Below, in pieces: positions 1,146-31,051 of a stretch of DNA of 64,000 bases (position 1 is its first letter; every line of letters begins with the position of its first letter). The notes beneath the pieces are model-generated. The model searched no databases. It worked only from the letters and a program-made list of their open reading frames with translations, and was not told the DNA's origin. The DNA comes from Micromonospora sp. NBC_01796 (GTDB lineage Bacteria > Actinomycetota > Actinomycetes > Mycobacteriales > Micromonosporaceae). Both the position numbers and the translations under genes were made by a program. The stretch is taken from positions 1,612,001-1,676,000 of the forward strand of contig NZ_CP109078.1 in assembly GCF_035917455.1 (NCBI RefSeq). Reading direction: 5' to 3'.

Positions 1146-2135
1146 ATGGCTACCGCCCTTGGTTCGCTGCGCAACCTGCTCATGACGCCATCGCTGGCCC
1201 AGGTGAGCTTCGAGGGGCGGGGCTTCCCGATCACCCCCACCGACGCCACCCGCCGGCTCGAAGCAATCCCACAGTCGGTGATCTGCGGTTTCGAATGGGG
1301 CATCGACGCCCGGAGCCTGTGGGAGGTGCAGAGCCGGGTCGAGTTGGTCGAGCCGGAGCTGCGCGGATTCGCGTACGAGGGCGTGACCATGGCCTTCACC
1401 ATCCGCGACTCGATGGCCGGTGGACGCGGCCGGCTCGCCGGGGACCTGCTGCGGGGCCCCGGACGCCCGCACATCTTCCTCACCTACATCGGGATCGGAT
1501 TCGCCATGGCCCGGCTGCCGCGACCGCTGTGGAAACGGGTGGTGCCGGACCTGACCGGGGTGCCGTACCACCCGACGATGAGTTGGCTCGCGGTCGACGG
1601 ATTCGGGTTCGACCGGGCCTACTTCGACACGCAGAAATGGGTGCAGGAGCAGAAGCGGCCGACGCCGTATCCGTGGGACGGGTGGCCCGACTACTTCCCC
1701 CGCGCCTTCGATCAGGGCGTCGGGCGGGCCCTCTGGTTCATCCATGGTGGACAGGTGGCCGACGTCGCCGCGGCGGTGGAACGGTTCGCCGTGGACCGGC
1801 GGGCGGACCTGTGGAGCGGAGTGGGACTCGCGGCCACCTTCGCCGGTGGGTGCGGACCGGCCGACCTGGCCGTCCTGCGCCGGGACGCGGGCGCGTACGC
1901 ACCCGACCTGGCCCAGGGAGCCGTGTTCGCCGCCAAGGCGCGGGCGTTCTCCGGACACGTGCCGGAGCGGACCGAGGGGGCGATGGGCGCACTGGCGGAC
2001 CTGTCCGTCACCGCCGCGTCGGAACTCGCCGACGACGTCGCCGTGGGCGGACTGCACGCGGACGGGCTGCCGCAGTACGAGGTGTGGCGGGCGAAGGTAC
2101 GGGAGTCGGTCACGGCTCCCTCGGGGTTGCGCTGA
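1146..2135 (+). CDS. Enediyne biosynthesis protein, DUF1702 / UnbL (E3) type, copy 1
   Basis: Predicted 329 residues. ATG 1146 follows a strong GAGGGGGAG site six bases upstream; in-frame codons further up have no such site. The protein is soluble with no signal or membrane segment. Diagnostic stretches are LRGFAYEGVTMAF, FLTYIGIGFAMARLPR, LAVDGFGFDRAYF, ALWFIHGG and GAGYAP-like glycine turns, matching the DUF1702 family found beside enediyne synthases (UnbL in the warhead cassette). The biochemical role of the family is not established. It is the first gene of the cassette, followed by a strong hairpin and then a second family member. Confidence 0.85.
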   Translation: MATALGSLRNLLMTPSLAQVSFEGRGFPITPTDATRRLEAIPQSVICGFEWGIDARSLWEVQSRVELVEPELRGFAYEGVTMAFTIRDSMAGGRGRLAGDLLRGPGRPHIFLTYIGIGFAMARLPRPLWKRVVPDLTGVPYHPTMSWLAVDGFGFDRAYFDTQKWVQEQKRPTPYPWDGWPDYFPRAFDQGVGRALWFIHGGQVADVAAAVERFAVDRRADLWSGVGLAATFAGGCGPADLAVLRRDAGAYAPDLAQGAVFAAKARAFSGHVPERTEGAMGALADLSVTAASELADDVAVGGLHADGLPQYEVWRAKVRESVTAPSGLR

Positions 2136-2156
2136 GCGCCCGACCGCACCGGCTAC

Positions 2157-2193
2157 CGGACCCGTCCGTTCGCTCGCCGAACGGACGGGTCCG
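2157..2193 (+). terminator. 16-bp hairpin between the two DUF1702 genes
   Basis: A perfect 16-bp stem (2157-2172 with 2178-2193) closes a 5-nt CTCGC loop and is followed by TCATTTCTTCG. Stem strength and position 22 bp after the stop suggest a terminator or strong attenuator that would uncouple the first DUF1702 gene from the PKSE unit. Confidence 0.7.
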
Positions 2194-2317
2194 TCATTTC
2201 TTCGATCGTGTGGGCATCCGTTCACAATGGCCAGATGGGCAATCACGAGGAAGAAATTCCGGTCGGGCCCTGCGAGGATCGGATTAGCGTGGACGAATAG
2301 ATGTTGGGGAGCGTTCC

Positions 2318-3292
2318 ATGAGATCTTATCGCGCGTTGCGGCGCCGTATCCTGACGCCGAACGTTTCCGAGACCAAGCTCGAAGTCCGGGGATTCCACGT
2401 CAAGAATCCCGAGGCCAAGGAGCTGCTGGAAACGGTAGGCCGGTCATTTCTGACCGGTTACGCGTACGCCGCAGAGGCCGCCACCACAGACGAGGCGGAG
2501 GAGCGACTCGAAGGCGTACCGACCCGCTTCCGCGGATTTGCGTACGAGGGTGCCGCGATGGGTTTCGCGGTACGGGAGGGACTGCCGATCGGCGGCCGGG
2601 GAATGGTTCGTGACTTCCTCGACGGGCGCGGGCACGACCACATCTACATGGCGTACGTCGGTGTGGGTTGGGCGATGGCCCGGCTGCCGAGGTTCCGTTG
2701 GTCGAGCCTGTACGCGCCGGACCCGCTGCTGCGCTGGCTGGTGCTCGACGGGTACGGCTTCCACCAGGCCTACTTCCAGACCGAGCGGTACGTCCACCAG
2801 GGATTCCAGGAGGAAAACTTCCCCTGGCCCGCCGGACCCCACGGCTGGTACGCGAACCGCGCCATCGACCAGGGGATCGGTCGGGCGCTGTGGTTCGTCG
2901 GCGGGACCGAGGCCGAGGTTGTCGCCGGGCTGATCGACCGGTTCCCGGAGCACCGCCGGTCGGATCTGTACAGCGGTGCCGGACTCGCCGCCACGTACGC
3001 CGGTGGCGGTGACGACACCGAACTGCGGTGGTTCGCCAAGCACGCCGGGCCGTACCAGCGCCAGGTGGCGCAGGGATCGGCGTTCGCCGCCGGTGCCCGG
3101 GTACGGGCCGGACTCGTGGTGCCGCACAACGAGATCGCCACCCAGGTTTTCTGCGGGATGACACCGGTCGAGGCCCAGCGGGTGACCGACGAGGCGCTGG
3201 TCGACCTGCCGGCCGACGGCGACGTCCCGTCCTGGGAGGTGTGGCGGCGCCGGATCGCCGCCCGGTTCGACTCCCTCGACACCGCCCCCTAA
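2318..3292 (+). CDS. Enediyne biosynthesis protein, DUF1702 / UnbL (E3) type, copy 2
   Basis: Predicted 324 residues from ATG 2318, preceded by GGGGAG. It carries the same ordered blocks as copy 1: RFRGFAYEGAAMGFAVREG, YMAYVGVGWAMARLPR, LVLDGYGFHQAYF, GIGRALWFVGG and SGAGLAATYAGG. The N-terminus differs, with a basic MRSYRALRRR start like many stand-alone UnbL proteins. The two copies are clearly paralogous but diverged over most positions, so this is not a recent duplication. It lies 65 bp upstream of PKSE on the same strand and is probably in its operon. Function is unknown beyond its association with enediyne warhead formation. Confidence 0.87.
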   Translation: MRSYRALRRRILTPNVSETKLEVRGFHVKNPEAKELLETVGRSFLTGYAYAAEAATTDEAEERLEGVPTRFRGFAYEGAAMGFAVREGLPIGGRGMVRDFLDGRGHDHIYMAYVGVGWAMARLPRFRWSSLYAPDPLLRWLVLDGYGFHQAYFQTERYVHQGFQEENFPWPAGPHGWYANRAIDQGIGRALWFVGGTEAEVVAGLIDRFPEHRRSDLYSGAGLAATYAGGGDDTELRWFAKHAGPYQRQVAQGSAFAAGARVRAGLVVPHNEIATQVFCGMTPVEAQRVTDEALVDLPADGDVPSWEVWRRRIAARFDSLDTAP

Positions 3293-3357
3293 CCGTTTCC
3301 CGCACATCGCCGGTCGCGGACGACGCGCACCAGCGGGCGTCCGCAGGAGAAGAGGTC

Positions 3358-24200: not shown

Positions 24201-25694
24201 TTGTCGGTTCAGTTTGCCATGCCCGCGATGAGTGGCCCAGCCCGCGATCACATCGATCTCGGGGTGTTGACCAGTACCGTCCCACCCGACCTGGTCGACG
24301 AGGTCATCGAGACCACCGGCTGCCGGGAACAACGACGCCGGGTCCTACCCGCCCGGGTGGTGATCTACTTCGTACTCGCGTTAACACTGTTCAGCGCCGC
24401 CGACGGCTACCGCCCACCGGGATACCGGGCCGTCCTACGGATCCTGGTCCTACGGTGGCGGGGCCTGTGTCAGGGATGCGTGATCGCGTCGAGCTCAGCG
24501 TTGACCCAGGCCCGGCAGCGACTCGGCGTCAAGCCCTTCCACCTGCTCTTCGACCGGGTCCGTGACTCCACCAACACCCCCACAACCGGCTCGACCTACG
24601 CCTTCGGTCGACGTCTCGTCGCATGGGACGCCACCACCCTCCCCGCCCCGGACACCCCCGCCAACGCCACCGAATTCGGCTACCACGGCCAAGCCCGCAA
24701 ACCCACCAAAAAACAAGTGGACAGCTACCTACGCCGGCTCGGCAGCACCCCACTGATCCGACTCATGACACTCATCGACTGCGGCACCCACAGCATCATC
24801 GACGCCGCCTTCGACGGAGTCGTCACCTCCAGCGAACCCGCCCTCGCCCGGCGGCTCCTCGCCTCACTCACCCCCGGCATGCTCCTCCTCGCCGACCGGA
24901 ACTTCACCAGTCACGACCTGTGGTCACACGCCACCGCCACCGGCGCCGACCTCATCTGGCGAGCGAAGAAGAACCTCCAACTCGTCCCCACCACCCACCT
25001 ACCCGACGGCTCATTCCTCGCCACACTCCCCACCAGACGCGAGACCGCCCGCCTCAACGGCGCCCGCGCCCGCGGCCGCGCACCCCAACCACCACGCCAC
25101 GGCCACCAAATCCGCGTCGTGGAATTCACCATCACCACCACCACCGGCCAAGACACCCGAACCGACGAATACCGGCTACTCACCACCCTGCTCGACCACC
25201 ACCACGCCCCCGCGCAACAACTCGCCACCCTCTACCAACAACGCTGGGAATCAGAAACCCACTACAGCTTCCTCAAACCCCGCCTCATCGGCACCAACAC
25301 CACCCTCCGCTCACACACACCCACCGGCATCACCCAAGAGATCTACGCACTCCTCATCACCTACCAAGCCCTCTGCCACCTCCGCACCGAAGCCGCCACC
25401 ACCGCCAACCACGACCCCGACCACATCTCCTTCACCCTCACCCTCCGCACCGCCCGCACCGCCCTCCACCAACCCCCCACCCACCACACCCGCAACCACA
25501 CCATCACCGACATCCTCAACGAACCACCACTCACCAGACGCCACCGCACCTACCCCCGCCAACGACGACCAACCGCCACCCCCTACCCCACAAAACCCCG
25601 CCACCAACCCCGACCACCCACCCACACCCACCACCACATCACCATCACACCCAGCCAAACCACCACCAAAATCACCAACCAACGCCTTAACTAA
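24201..25694 (+). CDS. IS4-family DDE transposase
   Basis: Predicted 497 residues from TTG 24201 (GGGAG six bases upstream); ATG 24219 is an alternative. After an N-terminal IS4 domain (LPARVVIYFVLALTLF, SALTQARQRLG), the catalytic core shows D1 in AWDATTL, D2 in LLADRNF and the C1 signature YQQRWESETHYSFLK with the catalytic Glu. The last 90 residues are a low-complexity Pro/Thr/His tail. Codons in the second half are almost free of G on the coding strand, very unlike the neighbours, which points to foreign origin. Nothing indicates inactivation. Confidence 0.92.
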   Translation: MSVQFAMPAMSGPARDHIDLGVLTSTVPPDLVDEVIETTGCREQRRRVLPARVVIYFVLALTLFSAADGYRPPGYRAVLRILVLRWRGLCQGCVIASSSALTQARQRLGVKPFHLLFDRVRDSTNTPTTGSTYAFGRRLVAWDATTLPAPDTPANATEFGYHGQARKPTKKQVDSYLRRLGSTPLIRLMTLIDCGTHSIIDAAFDGVVTSSEPALARRLLASLTPGMLLLADRNFTSHDLWSHATATGADLIWRAKKNLQLVPTTHLPDGSFLATLPTRRETARLNGARARGRAPQPPRHGHQIRVVEFTITTTTGQDTRTDEYRLLTTLLDHHHAPAQQLATLYQQRWESETHYSFLKPRLIGTNTTLRSHTPTGITQEIYALLITYQALCHLRTEAATTANHDPDHISFTLTLRTARTALHQPPTHHTRNHTITDILNEPPLTRRHRTYPRQRRPTATPYPTKPRHQPRPPTHTHHHITITPSQTTTKITNQRLN

Positions 25695-26575: not shown

Positions 26576-26906
26576 GGCGGACAGAGTGCCCGACCGGAGC
26601 CTGTCGTGTCGACCCGTTCCCCGCCCTCGGCCGTGAACTTTCCCACCACCCGACACCGGCCGGCGCGGTTTGCGCCACGACGAATCGAAGGCGGTCTAGT
26701 CTGAGCGATTCACGGCCGGTTCGAGTGTCCACTCGACACAGTGATTTTTTCACGCCTGAGCTGCACAAACGACGCGACCGGTCGGTGCGCGCGGCGGACC
26801 GGAACGGCCCGGATGCCGGCCCCGGACCCACCCCTGCCGGACGATCCGGATCTTGCGCCGAAAGATGGGGCTCGACACGATCCGGAAAACGGGTAATCCT
26901 GGCCCG
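26576..26906. other. Divergent intergenic region (331 bp)
   Basis: It lies between the leftward membrane-anchored gene and the rightward methyltransferase gene and must contain both promoters. A TTTTTTCACG stretch near 26744-26753 is the only clearly A/T-rich part. No gene or specific operator was recognised; an upstream start for either flanking gene would shorten it. Confidence 0.45.
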
Positions 26907-27662
26907 ATGTCGCTTTGGTTGCACGAGCTGTCGGAGGCGGAGCACCGCATCCTCAACCCGTTCACCCACGAGAAGTTGATGCTGCTCGGGGCGGCCAGTC
27001 GGGTCGGGCCGCAGACCAGGGTCCTCGACCTCGCGTGCGGGAAGGGTGAACTGCTCGCCCGCTGGGCCCAGGGTTACGGCATCCGTGGGCACGGCGTGGA
27101 CATCAGCGAGGTGTTCCTGACCGCCGCCAGCAAACGCGCGGCCGAACTCGGGGTCAGTGACCGGGTCAGCTTCCAGTACGGCGACGCCGCCGAGTACCGG
27201 GCCGAGCCCGCCGGTTACGACGTCGTCTCCTGCCTCGGCGCGACCTGGATCGGCGGCGGGCTGGCCGGGACCATCGAGCTGATGCGGCGGGCGGTCCGCC
27301 CCAACGGGCTGCTCCTGGTCGGCGAGCCCTACTGGATCGACCCGCCACCGCCTGGGGCGTACTCGGCGTACGGGTTCGGGCTGGACGACTTCACCTCGCT
27401 CGGCGGCACCCTGGACCGGTTCGAGGCGGCCGGCACCGACCTGGTCGAGGTGGTGCTCGCCGACGCCGACAGTTGGGACCGTTACGTGGCCCAGCAGTGG
27501 TGGACGCTGACCGAGTGGCTGCGCGCGTACCCGCACGATCCGCGCGCCCAGCAGGTACGCGAGTTCCGTGACCTGTCCCGCCGGTGGCACCTCGAGTACG
27601 GCCGCCGCTACTTCGGCTGGGGCGTCTTCGTACTCCGCCCGACGCTCGCCCCGGGACGGTAG
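26907..27662 (+). CDS. Class I SAM-dependent methyltransferase
   Basis: Predicted 251 residues from ATG 26907; an in-frame ATG at 26865 has no better ribosome site. Motif I is VLDLACGKGELLARWA (about residues 40-55), motif II GHGVDISEVFL, motif III near FQYGDAAEY, and the post-motif strand is YDVVSCLGATWIGGG. The GEPYWIDPPPPGAY loop and the LTEWLRAYPHDP helix are typical of small-molecule methyltransferases of the UbiE/SAM_11 kind. Substrate unknown. It stands alone on the plus strand, downstream of the IS. Confidence 0.85.
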   Translation: MSLWLHELSEAEHRILNPFTHEKLMLLGAASRVGPQTRVLDLACGKGELLARWAQGYGIRGHGVDISEVFLTAASKRAAELGVSDRVSFQYGDAAEYRAEPAGYDVVSCLGATWIGGGLAGTIELMRRAVRPNGLLLVGEPYWIDPPPPGAYSAYGFGLDDFTSLGGTLDRFEAAGTDLVEVVLADADSWDRYVAQQWWTLTEWLRAYPHDPRAQQVREFRDLSRRWHLEYGRRYFGWGVFVLRPTLAPGR

Positions 27663-28005: not shown

Positions 28006-30474
28006 TCAGCCGAGCATGAGGTAGCGGGTCACCACGCTCGCGGCGGCGCTCACCGCCTCGCGTACGGTCGCTGCGGCGTCCACGATGCCGGCGTCCCGCG
28101 CCACCACGTACCGCCCGCTCACCAGGTCGAAGGTGACCCCCGGCCCCCGGTACCACAGGTCCTCGGGCACCCCGTCCGGGTCGCGCCCGGCGCTGCGCAG
28201 CAACTCCTCGAACGGCGCCGGCAACGCGTCGACGACAACCGCGTACCCGAGCCCCTCGTCGTCTCCCCGCTGCCTCGGCACCGGTGCGGTACGCCGACCG
28301 GTGAGCCGGGTGTGCACCCCGAGCAGCGCCGCACCGCCGCCGGCGACCAGTCCCCACTCCACCGCAGCCTTGGCGTTGCGTACCGCGTCGTCGATCTGGC
28401 GCCGCCGGACCCGCTGCTGCTCCGGGGTCACCTCGCCCACCTTGATCACCGCCACCCCGCCGGCCACCCGGGACAGCCGCTCCGCCGACACCCGCAGCGG
28501 CTCGCCGTACCGCGACTCGGCCCGCCGCCTCCCGTCCGCCCGGGGGTCGTTGCGGCGCGGATCGGCACGGGTCCGCGCGGTCCGCAGCCGCTGGTAGCGG
28601 CGGACGATCGGGTCCGGGTCGTCGACCCCGGCCAGGACCACCGACTCGCTCCGGGTGGTGACCACCCGCCGGGCCCGGCCCAACTCGGCCAGGGTCGCGT
28701 CGGCGAGACGCACGGCCGACTCGCCCCCGAGCACCGTCGCGCCGGTGAGCGCGGCCAGTTCCGCCAGCGCGTCCCGGCGTTGACCGGCCGGCCAGGGCAG
28801 GGTCACCGCGACCGGGCTGAGCAACTGCCGGGCCTTCGCCAGGACCAGCGCGGCCAGCGCCGGGTCACGGATCTCGGGCGCGAACACCGCCAGCGGCCGA
28901 CCCTCCCGTTCCACCGCGCCCAGCAACCGCAACAACTCCTCGGCGGTACCGATCCGCTCGTCGACGAGGAGCACGTACGGCTCGTCGAGCACCGCCTCCG
29001 CCTCCTCCTCGTCGGTCACGAAAGCCGGTGACACGTGCCCGGCCCGCAGGCTCATCCCCTCGGTGAGTTCCAGTTCGAGGCCGAACAGGTTGCTCGCCTC
29101 GACCCGGATCACGCCGTCGCGGCCGATCCGGTCCACCGCCTCGGCCACCAGGTCGCCGACGAGTTCGTCACCGGAGGCGATGGTCGCCAGCGCCCGCAGT
29201 TCCGCTCTGGTGCGTACCGGCACCGCGAGGCCGGCGAGTTCCACGGCGACATCCCGTACGGCGGTCGAAATCCCCCGCCGCAGCGCCACCGGGTTGGCGC
29301 CGCCCCGGAGTGCGGCGGAGGCGCCGTCCAGCATGGCCTGGGCGAGGACCACGCCGGTGGTGGCTCCGTCGCCGACCCGGTGCCGGATTCCCTCCACCAG
29401 TTCCCGCAGGTAACCGGTGCCGAGCGCGTCGCGGGGGTCGCCACCTGCCAGCAGCCGGACGATCCCGGCCGCGTCCGCCATCTCGTGGTACCCGCCCTGC
29501 TCGTCCTGGACCAGCATCCGCCGGCCGAACGGCCCGTAGGTCCGCCGGATCAGGTCCGCACCCGTACGGAAGCCGCGCGCCACGATCGCCTGGTGCTGGT
29601 TGTAGGTGGCCGGCAGGTGGAGGGTCGGGGCGCCCGGGGCGGGTCCGGCGGTGAACCCGTTCGGGGCACCGCCGACCGTTCCGCCCGGCACCGGGACGGC
29701 GGCGCCACCCGTGATCGGCGCGGTGGCCAGGTAGATGTGCGGCTCGGCGTTGTAGGCGCTGTACTTCGGCTGCTGTTCCGGCCGGCGGCGGATCACCCCG
29801 TCGTGCACGTAACGGAACAGCTCGTCGACGCCGACCAGGCCGTCCCGGTCGAGGTCCGCCGCACCGGTGACCAGCCCTTCGATCAGTACGTCGGTGAAGA
29901 TCGAGCCACGGGGTGCCGAGGCGACCAGTTCGTCGGACTCGAACGCGTACTCGTAGCTGTCGCAGGCGCTGAGTACGACGTACCCCCGGCCCACCTGGCA
30001 CTCCAGCGCGCCCTGCGGCGCTCCCTTGAAGCCCTCGGCGAACGCACCGGCGAAGCAGCAGTCCAGGATCAGCACCTTGGCCGCGGCCCGGCACGCCTCG
30101 AACTGCTCGTTGACGAAGGAACGGGAGATGGCCGTGCTCGCCGGGCGGGTACGGACGGTGTCGGCGGCGGCGAAGTAGAGCCGGTGGTAGGGGTCGACGA
30201 TCCCGTGGCAGGAGAAGTAGAGCAGGACGAGATCGCTGTCGACCCTGTCCGTCAACAGGTCCTCGATCGCCGCCCGTACCTCCCGTTCGGGGGCGTCGCG
30301 CAGCGTACGCACGTGGAAGTTGCCGATCGCCGGATCCGCCAGTACGGCACCCAACCGCGCCACGTCCTGCTGCGGTGCGCGCAGCCGGTCGAGGGAGGGG
30401 TCGGCGTACTCACCGGTCGCGATCAGCAGCGCGTACCGGCCGGCCGGTGATCTAGTCGCCACCGGACCCGACAT
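28006..30474 (-). CDS. Caspase-like peptidase fused to a GroEL-type chaperonin
   Basis: Predicted 822 residues from ATG 30474. Residues 12-255 are a caspase-fold peptidase: LLYFSCHG with catalytic His 90, LILDCCFAGAF with catalytic Cys 140, and a C-terminal DLDRDGLVGVDELF loop at 207-220 as in EACC1-linked caspases. A Gly/Pro linker follows. Residues about 290-822 align along their length with group I chaperonin: TYGPFGRRM (TLGPKGRN in GroEL), VGDGATTGVVLAQAML with Asp 369 equivalent to GroEL Asp87, AGHVSPAFVTD of the apical domain, IDDAVRNAKAAVEWGLVAGGG with Asp 696 equivalent to Asp398, and DAGIVDAAATVREAV. An Arg-rich insert lies at about 630-655. Both active sites look intact. The start overlaps the EACC1 gene by 23 bp, so the two are coupled. 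It probably acts in the cytoplasm as a conflict or cell-death effector; this is inference. Confidence 0.88.
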   Translation of the reverse strand: MSGPVATRSPAGRYALLIATGEYADPSLDRLRAPQQDVARLGAVLADPAIGNFHVRTLRDAPEREVRAAIEDLLTDRVDSDLVLLYFSCHGIVDPYHRLYFAAADTVRTRPASTAISRSFVNEQFEACRAAAKVLILDCCFAGAFAEGFKGAPQGALECQVGRGYVVLSACDSYEYAFESDELVASAPRGSIFTDVLIEGLVTGAADLDRDGLVGVDELFRYVHDGVIRRRPEQQPKYSAYNAEPHIYLATAPITGGAAVPVPGGTVGGAPNGFTAGPAPGAPTLHLPATYNQHQAIVARGFRTGADLIRRTYGPFGRRMLVQDEQGGYHEMADAAGIVRLLAGGDPRDALGTGYLRELVEGIRHRVGDGATTGVVLAQAMLDGASAALRGGANPVALRRGISTAVRDVAVELAGLAVPVRTRAELRALATIASGDELVGDLVAEAVDRIGRDGVIRVEASNLFGLELELTEGMSLRAGHVSPAFVTDEEEAEAVLDEPYVLLVDERIGTAEELLRLLGAVEREGRPLAVFAPEIRDPALAALVLAKARQLLSPVAVTLPWPAGQRRDALAELAALTGATVLGGESAVRLADATLAELGRARRVVTTRSESVVLAGVDDPDPIVRRYQRLRTARTRADPRRNDPRADGRRRAESRYGEPLRVSAERLSRVAGGVAVIKVGEVTPEQQRVRRRQIDDAVRNAKAAVEWGLVAGGGAALLGVHTRLTGRRTAPVPRQRGDDEGLGYAVVVDALPAPFEELLRSAGRDPDGVPEDLWYRGPGVTFDLVSGRYVVARDAGIVDAAATVREAVSAAASVVTRYLMLG

Positions 30475-31051
30475 CCCGCCGCGCCTGCGGTACCGCCTTC
30501 ACCTCCGGCCGCGCGCCCCGCCCGGGCACCGCCCGGACCTTCGGCTCCGGACCCGTCTGCGGCACCGGGCCGACCTCGGGCACCTGCACGGTGTCGGGCA
30601 CCTCGGGGAGGTCGACCGCCGGGTCGGTCCGGTCGGGCGTGGTGAGCCAGTGCGCGACCGCCTGCTCGGTACGTGCCGACGGGTCGACGATGGTCAGGGT
30701 CCGGTCCCCGTCGCGGAGCACGATCCGCCGGGCGGCGCCCCGCCGGACGAAGGCGACCACGATCTGGGTAAGGGCGGCGAGGGTGGTGGCCGAGAAGGCG
30801 CCGGTGATGACGAGTTCGGCGAGCGACACCGCCTCGCCGGCCTTACGGCCGGTGGCGGGGTCGGGGTCCGGTCGCGGGTCGGAACCGGTCCGGGGATCCG
30901 GGCCGGGCGCGGATCGACCGACCGCTATCCCCGCTCCGGTCCGCAACTCCCGGAGCAGGGCGGTGGTGGCGGCAGCGTCGGCCCGATCACTGTCCGCCAT
31001 CGGGCCACTGACCTGCAGAAACAGTTCCCGATCACCTGACGCGTTCCACAT
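30452..31051 (-). CDS. EACC1-type effector-associated constant component
   Basis: Predicted 199 residues from ATG 31051. The N-terminal part (FLQVSGPMADSDRADAAATTALLRELRT) and the central block (AGEAVSLAELVITG, LAALTQIVVAFVRRGAARRIVLRDGDRTLTI) match the EACC1 pattern: a beta-alpha unit, a hydrophobic helix, then a basic beta-hairpin. A Pro/Val-rich tail with repeated VPE/VPQ units (about residues 150-190) follows. EACC1 proteins accompany caspase, trypsin or TIR effectors in conflict systems of multicellular bacteria and are thought to deliver or gate the effector. It overlaps the caspase-chaperonin start by 23 bp, and together they form a two-gene operon. Confidence 0.8.
   Translation of the reverse strand: MWNASGDRELFLQVSGPMADSDRADAAATTALLRELRTGAGIAVGRSAPGPDPRTGSDPRPDPDPATGRKAGEAVSLAELVITGAFSATTLAALTQIVVAFVRRGAARRIVLRDGDRTLTIVDPSARTEQAVAHWLTTPDRTDPAVDLPEVPDTVQVPEVGPVPQTGPEPKVRAVPGRGARPEVKAVPQARRDVGSGGD

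Follow-up and report, generated by a model that had tools for sequence, protein, structure and literature searches.

EACC1-caspase systems (System 4 of Kaur et al., 2020, eLife, PMC7159879; profiles NF047832 and PF19953) consist, according to the main text of that paper, of a 5′ EACC1-like gene and a 3′ caspase gene whose product carries a variable C-terminal domain. Up to 50 alternative C-terminal domains were reported there, EF-Tu and Clp-like proteases being named among them. Systems of this kind are predicted to mediate conflict or cell-death responses at the membrane. In a later paper (PMC8195603, in the text available), the C-terminal variable domain of the analogous EACC2 system is proposed to take part in sensing. 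A locus with the same layout was found in Micromonospora sp. NBC_01796, in a stretch of 64,000 nucleotides (contig NZ_CP109078.1, positions 1,612,001 to 1,676,000; hereafter the window). One open frame of 822 amino acids on the reverse strand (28006..30474), recognized from the open reading frame (ORF) list and Pfam, joins a caspase half to a chaperonin half; the variable domain differs from those described in being a group I chaperonin. The words GroEL, cpn60, Hsp60 and TCP-1 do not occur in the main text of PMC7159879.

By its upstream EACC1-like gene, its EACC1-type caspase and its variable C-terminal domain, the locus belongs by sequence to the EACC1-caspase type. That type was already known, and the part that appears to be new is the chaperonin as the variable module. 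No caspase-GroEL fusion was described in the titles and abstract openings of the open-access literature searched; the text available of PMC12799240 uses GroEL solely as a loading control, and the main text of PMC10907252 contains neither EACC1 nor GroEL. The reading preferred here, to which about an even chance is given, is that the protein is a sensor- or switch-controlled death-type protease in which a repurposed chaperonin is the control module of an EACC1-caspase system. The features on which this reading draws are as follows.

28006..30474, reverse strand: caspase-chaperonin fusion gene (ORF; Pfam and NCBIfam matches; 22 distinct homologues with the same architecture, L007 being without most of the apical domain)
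30452..31051, reverse strand: EACC1-like partner gene, 199 residues, with one hydrophobic helix-like stretch near the middle (Pfam PF19953 below threshold; alignment of eight partners)
29755..30438, reverse strand: caspase (Peptidase_C14, EACC1-associated type), residues 13-240 (Pfam, NCBIfam)
30205-30207 and 30055-30057, reverse strand: predicted catalytic His90 and Cys140, respectively (alignment of 23 fusions)
29821..29856, reverse strand: EF-hand-like loop DLDRDGLVGVDE, residues 207-218, within the caspase domain (pattern search)
29605..29724, reverse strand: low-confidence Gly/Pro/Ala linker, residues 251-290 (length and sequence variable among relatives; predicted local distance difference test score, pLDDT, below 50 at 254-289)
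28009..29604, reverse strand: group I chaperonin (Cpn60/GroEL) part, residues 291-822, equivalent to GroEL 9-518 (Pfam, NCBIfam, structure match, model)
29368..29370, reverse strand: D369, equivalent to GroEL D87 in the ATP pocket (Asp in 23 of 23 fusions)
28387..28389, reverse strand: D696, equivalent to GroEL D398 for ATP hydrolysis (Asp in 9 of 23 fusions; His, Asn, Arg or Ala in the other 14)
28453..29058, reverse strand: apical domain for client and GroES binding, residues 473-674, mostly deleted in the congener G002 (alignment to ordinary GroEL)

The fusion and its distribution

The preliminary description of this DNA had proposed an 822-residue caspase-chaperonin protein whose gene overlaps an EACC1 gene by 23 bp, and the ORFs and family profiles confirmed it: the upstream ORF (30452-31051) overlaps the fusion gene, for which an alternative GTG start lies at 30462, by exactly that length. 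Chance, a frameshift or an annotation error was rejected as the source of the fusion because each of 23 distinct proteins is encoded by a single open frame. Codon-model omega of 0.04-0.34 in 15 of the 17 domain partitions run also argues against an artefact. The comparison confirms the fusion as a real and established lineage under purifying selection.

The 23 aligned fusions comprised three from the window genus, seven from the Plantactinospora genus, one from a third genus (G021), one from Kutzneria and 11 from Saccharothrix. The Plantactinospora genus, g32 in the genome sample, was so named since four of its proteins are sequence-identical to proteins from P. endophytica, P. alkalitolerans, P. 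mayteni and Micromonospora sp. HM5-17. The fusion was present in all three genomes of the window genus, once in a shortened form (L007), and in all seven of the Plantactinospora genus. Among the sampled genomes of the family it was detected in 8 of 101 (3 of 44 genera). Of the 19 named loci yielded by the genome scan, the fusion is present at 16, which belong to three Plantactinospora, to Micromonospora sp. HM5-17, to Kutzneria viridogrisea and to eleven Saccharothrix. The remaining three (L043, L044 and L046) encode caspase-like proteins of other kinds. Plantactinospora belongs to the Micromonosporaceae, and Kutzneria and Saccharothrix to the Pseudonocardiaceae. In the genus to which one Saccharothrix locus belongs, 20 of 25 genomes were positive at E ≤ 1e-60, with best matches extending from residue 1 to at least 622. 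The expectation that the same domain pair would occur in other actinomycetes was thereby borne out in the Plantactinospora genus, Kutzneria, Saccharothrix and the third genus. In the wider samples the fusion was found in 1 of 150 order genomes and 1 of 197 class genomes, the one positive in each case being the genome of the window itself. More distant fusions could have escaped detection, because the family, order and class samples scored the top few candidates per genome and the genome-contig scan used two peptide patterns.

When the chaperonin parts were placed in an unrooted tree together with 23 ordinary GroELs, one branch with support of 100/100 parted all fusions from the ordinary proteins. 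In the caspase tree, which was built without L089, L090, L093 and L094 and has many long branches, the 23 fusions formed one group (100/100) apart from 21 further caspases found with NF047832. L061 and L067, which contain internal stops, were left out. A single ancestral fusion fits these trees because the caspase parts and the chaperonin parts each form one clade. A recent or mobile fusion was not supported, as the neighbours are syntenic within genera and no plasmid or viral relative was found: plasmid records covering 80% of the query numbered 0 of 1277 matched, and viral contigs, scanned narrowly with two peptides, gave no relative (a weak negative).

The chaperonin half and its ATP site

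The C-terminal half matches chaperonin profiles over its length, as the preliminary description had supposed. The Cpn60 family match covers residues 306-819 (Pfam, 132.6 bits), and the nearest solved structure by sequence, M. tuberculosis Cpn60.2, aligns over residues 298-819. In the predicted structure of the fusion monomer (mean pLDDT 67.0, predicted template modelling score 0.55, built from 17 sequences), residues 290/291-822 superpose on E. coli GroEL 8/9-518. One GroEL subfamily model of NCBIfam was passed (356.5 vs. 352), and the GroEL equivalog model TIGR02348 was missed (337.5 bits vs. a cut-off of 582.1). By these comparisons the fusion has the Cpn60 fold without the full set of GroEL features.

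The roles assigned below to individual GroEL residues, except for D398 and the SR1 set, are those generally accepted. The equivalents of GroEL T30, G32, P33, D52, D87, G88, G414 and D495 are invariant in all 23 fusions. T89 is substituted in every fusion and T90 in 12 of the 23, and the N479-A481 stretch is absent from all 11 Saccharothrix fusions. At the equivalent of D398, Asp occurs in the window protein, the seven Plantactinospora-genus members and the G021 member; the two congeners of the window have His (L006) and Asn (L007), Kutzneria and 10 Saccharothrix have Arg, and one Saccharothrix has Ala. The claim that the ATPase aspartates are kept therefore stood for D369 throughout the fusions, and for D696 in 9 of 23, so that the refuting condition set on the His/Cys and Asp positions gave a split result. 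In GroEL itself, the D398A substitution lowers ATP hydrolysis to about 2% of wild type, as given in the text available of PMC3813556.

Ring assembly

All 23 fusions terminate near GroEL 518. They share the C-terminal motif R(Y/F)(L/I)(M/L) followed by two residues, which aligns with the stretch just ahead of the GroEL C-terminal strand; that strand and the Gly/Met- or His-rich tail are absent from every fusion. Both end segments of GroEL (1-8 and 519-548) lack a counterpart in the window protein, since the structure model aligns only GroEL 8/9-518. According to the available text of PMC11978752, GroEL without its 27 C-terminal residues is tolerated at high expression, and removal of one further residue makes it assembly-deficient; the fusions are about two residues shorter than this assembly-blocking truncation. 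At the ring-ring contact, R452 is replaced by Glu in 11 of 11 Micromonosporaceae fusions, in which V464 is Ala or Gly. The four single-ring substitutions of SR1 include R452E and V464A (PMC12696368, PMC9138447, in the portions available). Position 452 by itself is not proof, because some ordinary GroELs vary there as well (Lys or Phe in 4 of the 10 shown). Saccharothrix fusions retain R452 in 9 of 11 cases and have Asp or Glu at A109 in all 11.

These features make a GroEL-type ring doubtful for the fusion. The fusion may nevertheless enter mixed rings together with ordinary GroEL, or the linker may complete a ring. The proposal that an ATP-driven ring carries up to fourteen proteases was not upheld, given the shared C-termini, the lack of counterparts for the end segments, the R452E change in the Micromonosporaceae, and the in-frame loss of most of the apical domain in one congener.

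Evolution of the apical domain

The client-binding positions F204, L234, L237, L259 and V263 of GroEL are unchanged in the window protein and V264 is Leu, while Y199 is His and Y203 is Ala in both the window protein and L006. Codon-model omega for the caspase was 0.09 in Saccharothrix, 0.045 in the Plantactinospora genus and 0.07 in the window genus. The corresponding values were 0.14, 0.07 and 0.14 for the N-terminal equatorial part, and 0.13, 0.11 and 0.10 for the C-terminal equatorial part. The apical domain gave 0.34 in Saccharothrix and 0.16 in the Plantactinospora genus; the apical partition of the window genus, with two sequences, stood outside the codon-model run. An omega of 1.000 for the intC partition (32 codons) in the Plantactinospora genus and the window genus was taken as an optimizer default and discarded. 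Simple counting gave apical values of 0.69 in Saccharothrix, 0.16 in Plantactinospora and 0.44 in the window genus. In seven usable pairs of ordinary GroELs (L110-L111 and L112-L111, which are out of register, were excluded), apical omega was 0.02-0.16 and exceeded that of the N-terminal equatorial part in six. Compared with ordinary GroEL, the apical domain is thus much less constrained in Saccharothrix and the window genus; for Plantactinospora the difference is not clear.

Positive selection on the apical domain was not shown, the apical omega values being 0.34 and 0.16. By simple counting, one 30-codon window exceeded 1 in Saccharothrix (1.07) and two did so in the pair L001-L006 (2.77 and 1.18); none of the three was relied on, and the L001-L006 pair differs there by indels near the apical end.

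The fusion of the congener G002 (L007, at 1510-3327) has 606 residues and matches residues 2-470 and 667-822 of the window protein nearly end to end. Its join retains a seven-residue piece equivalent to 611-617, so that about 469-610 and 618-670 are missing, and both losses are in frame. Omega in its remaining equatorial parts is similar to that of its relatives. This shortened protein may still function, or it may mark the onset of decay.

The caspase half

The N-terminal half scored 165.2 bits against NF047832 "caspase, EACC1-associated type" (cut-off 140). His90 and Cys140, which had been named as the catalytic pair with their conservation as the refutation test, are invariant in 23 of 23 fusions. 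The catalytic residues of this predicted clan CD peptidase are intact by sequence. The model of this domain is poor near the active site, with pLDDT below 50 at residues 90-119 and 141-163, and a sequence comparison with solved structures gave no close relative of the caspase part (the best was MALT1 paracaspase, E 0.17). All 23 fusions show the EF-hand-like loop pattern, and 8 of 25 further caspases from the NF047832 search have a looser version of it. The loop is a possible Ca2+ site, and Ca2+ control of the caspase is possible. The linker that follows the caspase (251-290) contains no Lys or Arg in the window protein.

The window genome encodes four caspases above the NF047832 cut-off, namely the fusion, one joined to FtsK-like domains, one joined to a solute-binding-like domain, and one with a caspase only by Pfam within the stretches fetched. 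FtsK-like, solute-binding-like, amylase and AAA/helicase-like domains were found by Pfam among 10 of 25 other caspase loci, several of which end early. The caspases L092, L095, L102, L088, L098 and L100 of the NF047832 search carry an alpha-amylase, solute-binding-like, FtsK or AAA/helicase-like domain. A caspase match in G001 (L013) has one TGA inside a long open frame. Two ordinary GroELs are encoded besides the fusion in all six genomes checked (the window genome, both congeners, Kutzneria and two Saccharothrix).

The EACC1-like partner and neighbouring genes

Among six partners scanned with PF19953 (cut-off 23.6), the one at L030 (Micromonospora sp. HM5-17) passed with 24.3; those of L028 (18.9), L035 (18.2) and the window (11.9) scored below it, and those of L032 and L036 gave no match. 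The window partner is counted as EACC1-like because it is homologous to the L030 partner (58% identity over 84 amino acids), which passes the profile. In all 23 fusion loci a gene with sequence likeness to EACC1, judged by eye on translations, stands immediately upstream. It was the only neighbour family common to both host families in a crude comparison of 15 fusion loci, in which the gene finder recovered it in 11. An MFS gene, an AraC-like gene and one more gene on the EACC1 side, named from their translations, are common to the window and Plantactinospora loci by tblastn, and several neighbour families in Saccharothrix are present at 10 or 11 of 11 loci. The pair looks vertically inherited within genera because of this synteny. 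When fusion and partner were scanned with PADLOC, the partner gene gave no match. The EACC1 profile also matched a 37-residue piece of a PDZ protease (E 5e-4).

A methyltransferase gene beside the fusion (26853-27662, forward strand) has 96-97% identity in both congeners, and no match to it was found in the flanks of four Plantactinospora-genus loci with long flanks. An ORF about 2.3 kb from the fusion gene (24201-25694, forward strand) resembles a DDE transposase gene.

Proposed mechanism and alternative explanations

In the preferred reading, EACC1 would hold or sense at the membrane. The chaperonin part would bind a trigger; that of the Micromonosporaceae and of Kutzneria would probably bind ATP too. 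It would act as a slow or one-shot conformational switch and not as a cycling folding cage, and its conformational change would relieve or cluster the caspase, leading to cleavage of itself or of cell proteins. What is sensed might be a polypeptide, either non-native or foreign, or else the condition of the cell's own chaperonin. That the chaperonin serves as a built-in sensor is our best guess, and we infer all steps between the trigger and the action of the caspase.

Several points weigh against this reading. By simple counting the apical domain was not the single fastest part (first intermediate segment, intN, 0.72 vs. 0.69 in Saccharothrix; C-terminal equatorial part, equatC, 0.20 vs. 0.16 in Plantactinospora), and its fast trend is partly ordinary, because ordinary GroELs show it too at a lower level. 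ATP binding itself is uncertain, most of all in Saccharothrix, because T89 and T90 are replaced and N479-A481 is missing. The window protein, which keeps the equivalents of D398 and D52, may hydrolyse ATP, and the Plantactinospora-genus members, with D398 kept and an apical omega of 0.16, look more like a working chaperonin. The loss of assembly is argued by analogy with E. coli truncations, and the linker could substitute for the missing strands. Since the locus is stable and syntenic within genera, a developmental role fits as well as defence. No experiment on any EACC1 system was found in the literature searched, as far as its available text extends.

Retention of the D87, D52 and D398 equivalents, together with five unchanged client-binding positions and a chaperonin fold over GroEL 9-518 in the model, would suit an active chaperonin-protease machine, whose ATP-using rings would sample proteins that are unfolded or foreign and pass them on to seven or fourteen caspase domains. 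Such a machine is very unlikely: D398 is lost in 14 of 23 fusions, the C-terminal strand and tail are missing in all of them, R452E and V464 to Ala or Gly mark the 11 Micromonosporaceae members, Y199H and Y203A occur in the window protein and L006, and the apical domain of L007 is mostly gone. Moreover, a protein on each N-terminus would be crowded (PMC9138447, in the portion available). The chaperonin could instead be cargo that is freed as an effector by caspase autoproteolysis, a release that Kaur et al. suggested for the variable C-terminal domains generally (PMC7159879, main text). Its position C-terminal to the caspase and behind a flexible linker agrees with this general model for the system type, yet a chaperonin with lost hydrolysis and assembly features would be an odd effector, and the linker without Lys or Arg speaks against cleavage there, which matters only if the caspase prefers basic residues. 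Little likelihood is given to this explanation. A bacterial counterpart of the apoptosome or inflammasome built from GroEL, in which a chaperonin that no longer runs the folding cycle has turned into an ATP-gated receptor, binds an alarm polypeptide on the divergent apical surface without folding it and gathers membrane-tethered caspases via the linker, is regarded as quite unlikely.

Many phages need or alter the host GroEL. The chaperonin may accordingly be an integrated decoy that mimics host GroEL, so that GroEL-binding phage factors bind it and trip the caspase, an explanation that is considered unlikely. Two normal GroELs in each of the six hosts checked, the strong apical divergence among relatives and the fusion of the same caspase family elsewhere to the housekeeping-like EF-Tu and to Clp-like proteases (PMC7159879, main text) are in its favour. 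However, a decoy would be expected to resemble its target closely, and the client-binding surface has diverged in two groups and been mostly lost in L007; the fusion is chromosomally stable, with no plasmid record at 80% query coverage and no relative in the narrow two-peptide viral scan, and no whole-domain omega above 1 was obtained in the partitions relied on. A vertically inherited regulator of developmental or stress cell death, which reads protein-folding stress in multicellular actinomycetes, would account for the presence of the fusion in 3 of 3 window-genus, 7 of 7 Plantactinospora-genus and 20 of 25 Saccharothrix-genus genomes and for the synteny within genera. Its probability is low: 5 of the 25 Saccharothrix-genus genomes were without the fusion at the threshold used, and the class is predicted to be a conflict system. 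This explanation overlaps the sensor- or switch-controlled protease because it concerns the trigger more than the mechanism.

If the control-module reading is true, bacteria use the chaperonin fold to control a death-type protease and not to fold proteins. The role of the variable C-terminal domains of EACC1-caspases would then become testable, since it is well known which chaperonin residues serve to bind and hydrolyse ATP, to assemble the ring and to bind clients. The members with the hydrolysis residue intact, with it lost and with the apical domain deleted would form a natural series for learning which functions the caspase needs.

Comparison with known systems

The assignment of the EACC1/caspase context to a conflict or cell-death system agrees with the prediction for the class in the main text of PMC7159879. 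The PADLOC model 'caspase' (PDLC02987), which stands for caspases of bacterial defence systems, shares the caspase fold and matches residues 14-244 (34.4 bits, E 3.4e-9); it differs in that the match spans positions 4-167 of a 453-position model. GroEL/Cpn60 has the same equatorial, intermediate and apical domains (GroEL ~9 to ~518) and most ATP-pocket residues, whereas the fusion sits behind a caspase, is without GroEL 1-8 and 519-548, has lost the hydrolysis residue in 14 of 23 members, and has altered ring-contact residues. The single-ring chaperonins GroEL SR1 and mitochondrial Hsp60 resemble the 11 Micromonosporaceae fusions in R452E and in the change of V464 to Ala or Gly; unlike the fusions they retain the C-terminal strand, and they are assembled as heptamers. 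The chaperonin-like regulatory domains of PIKfyve/Fab1 kinase and BBS6/10/12 are a further parallel, in which the fold serves binding or regulation and no folding cycle takes place, although these are eukaryotic, of group II type, and without a link to caspases.

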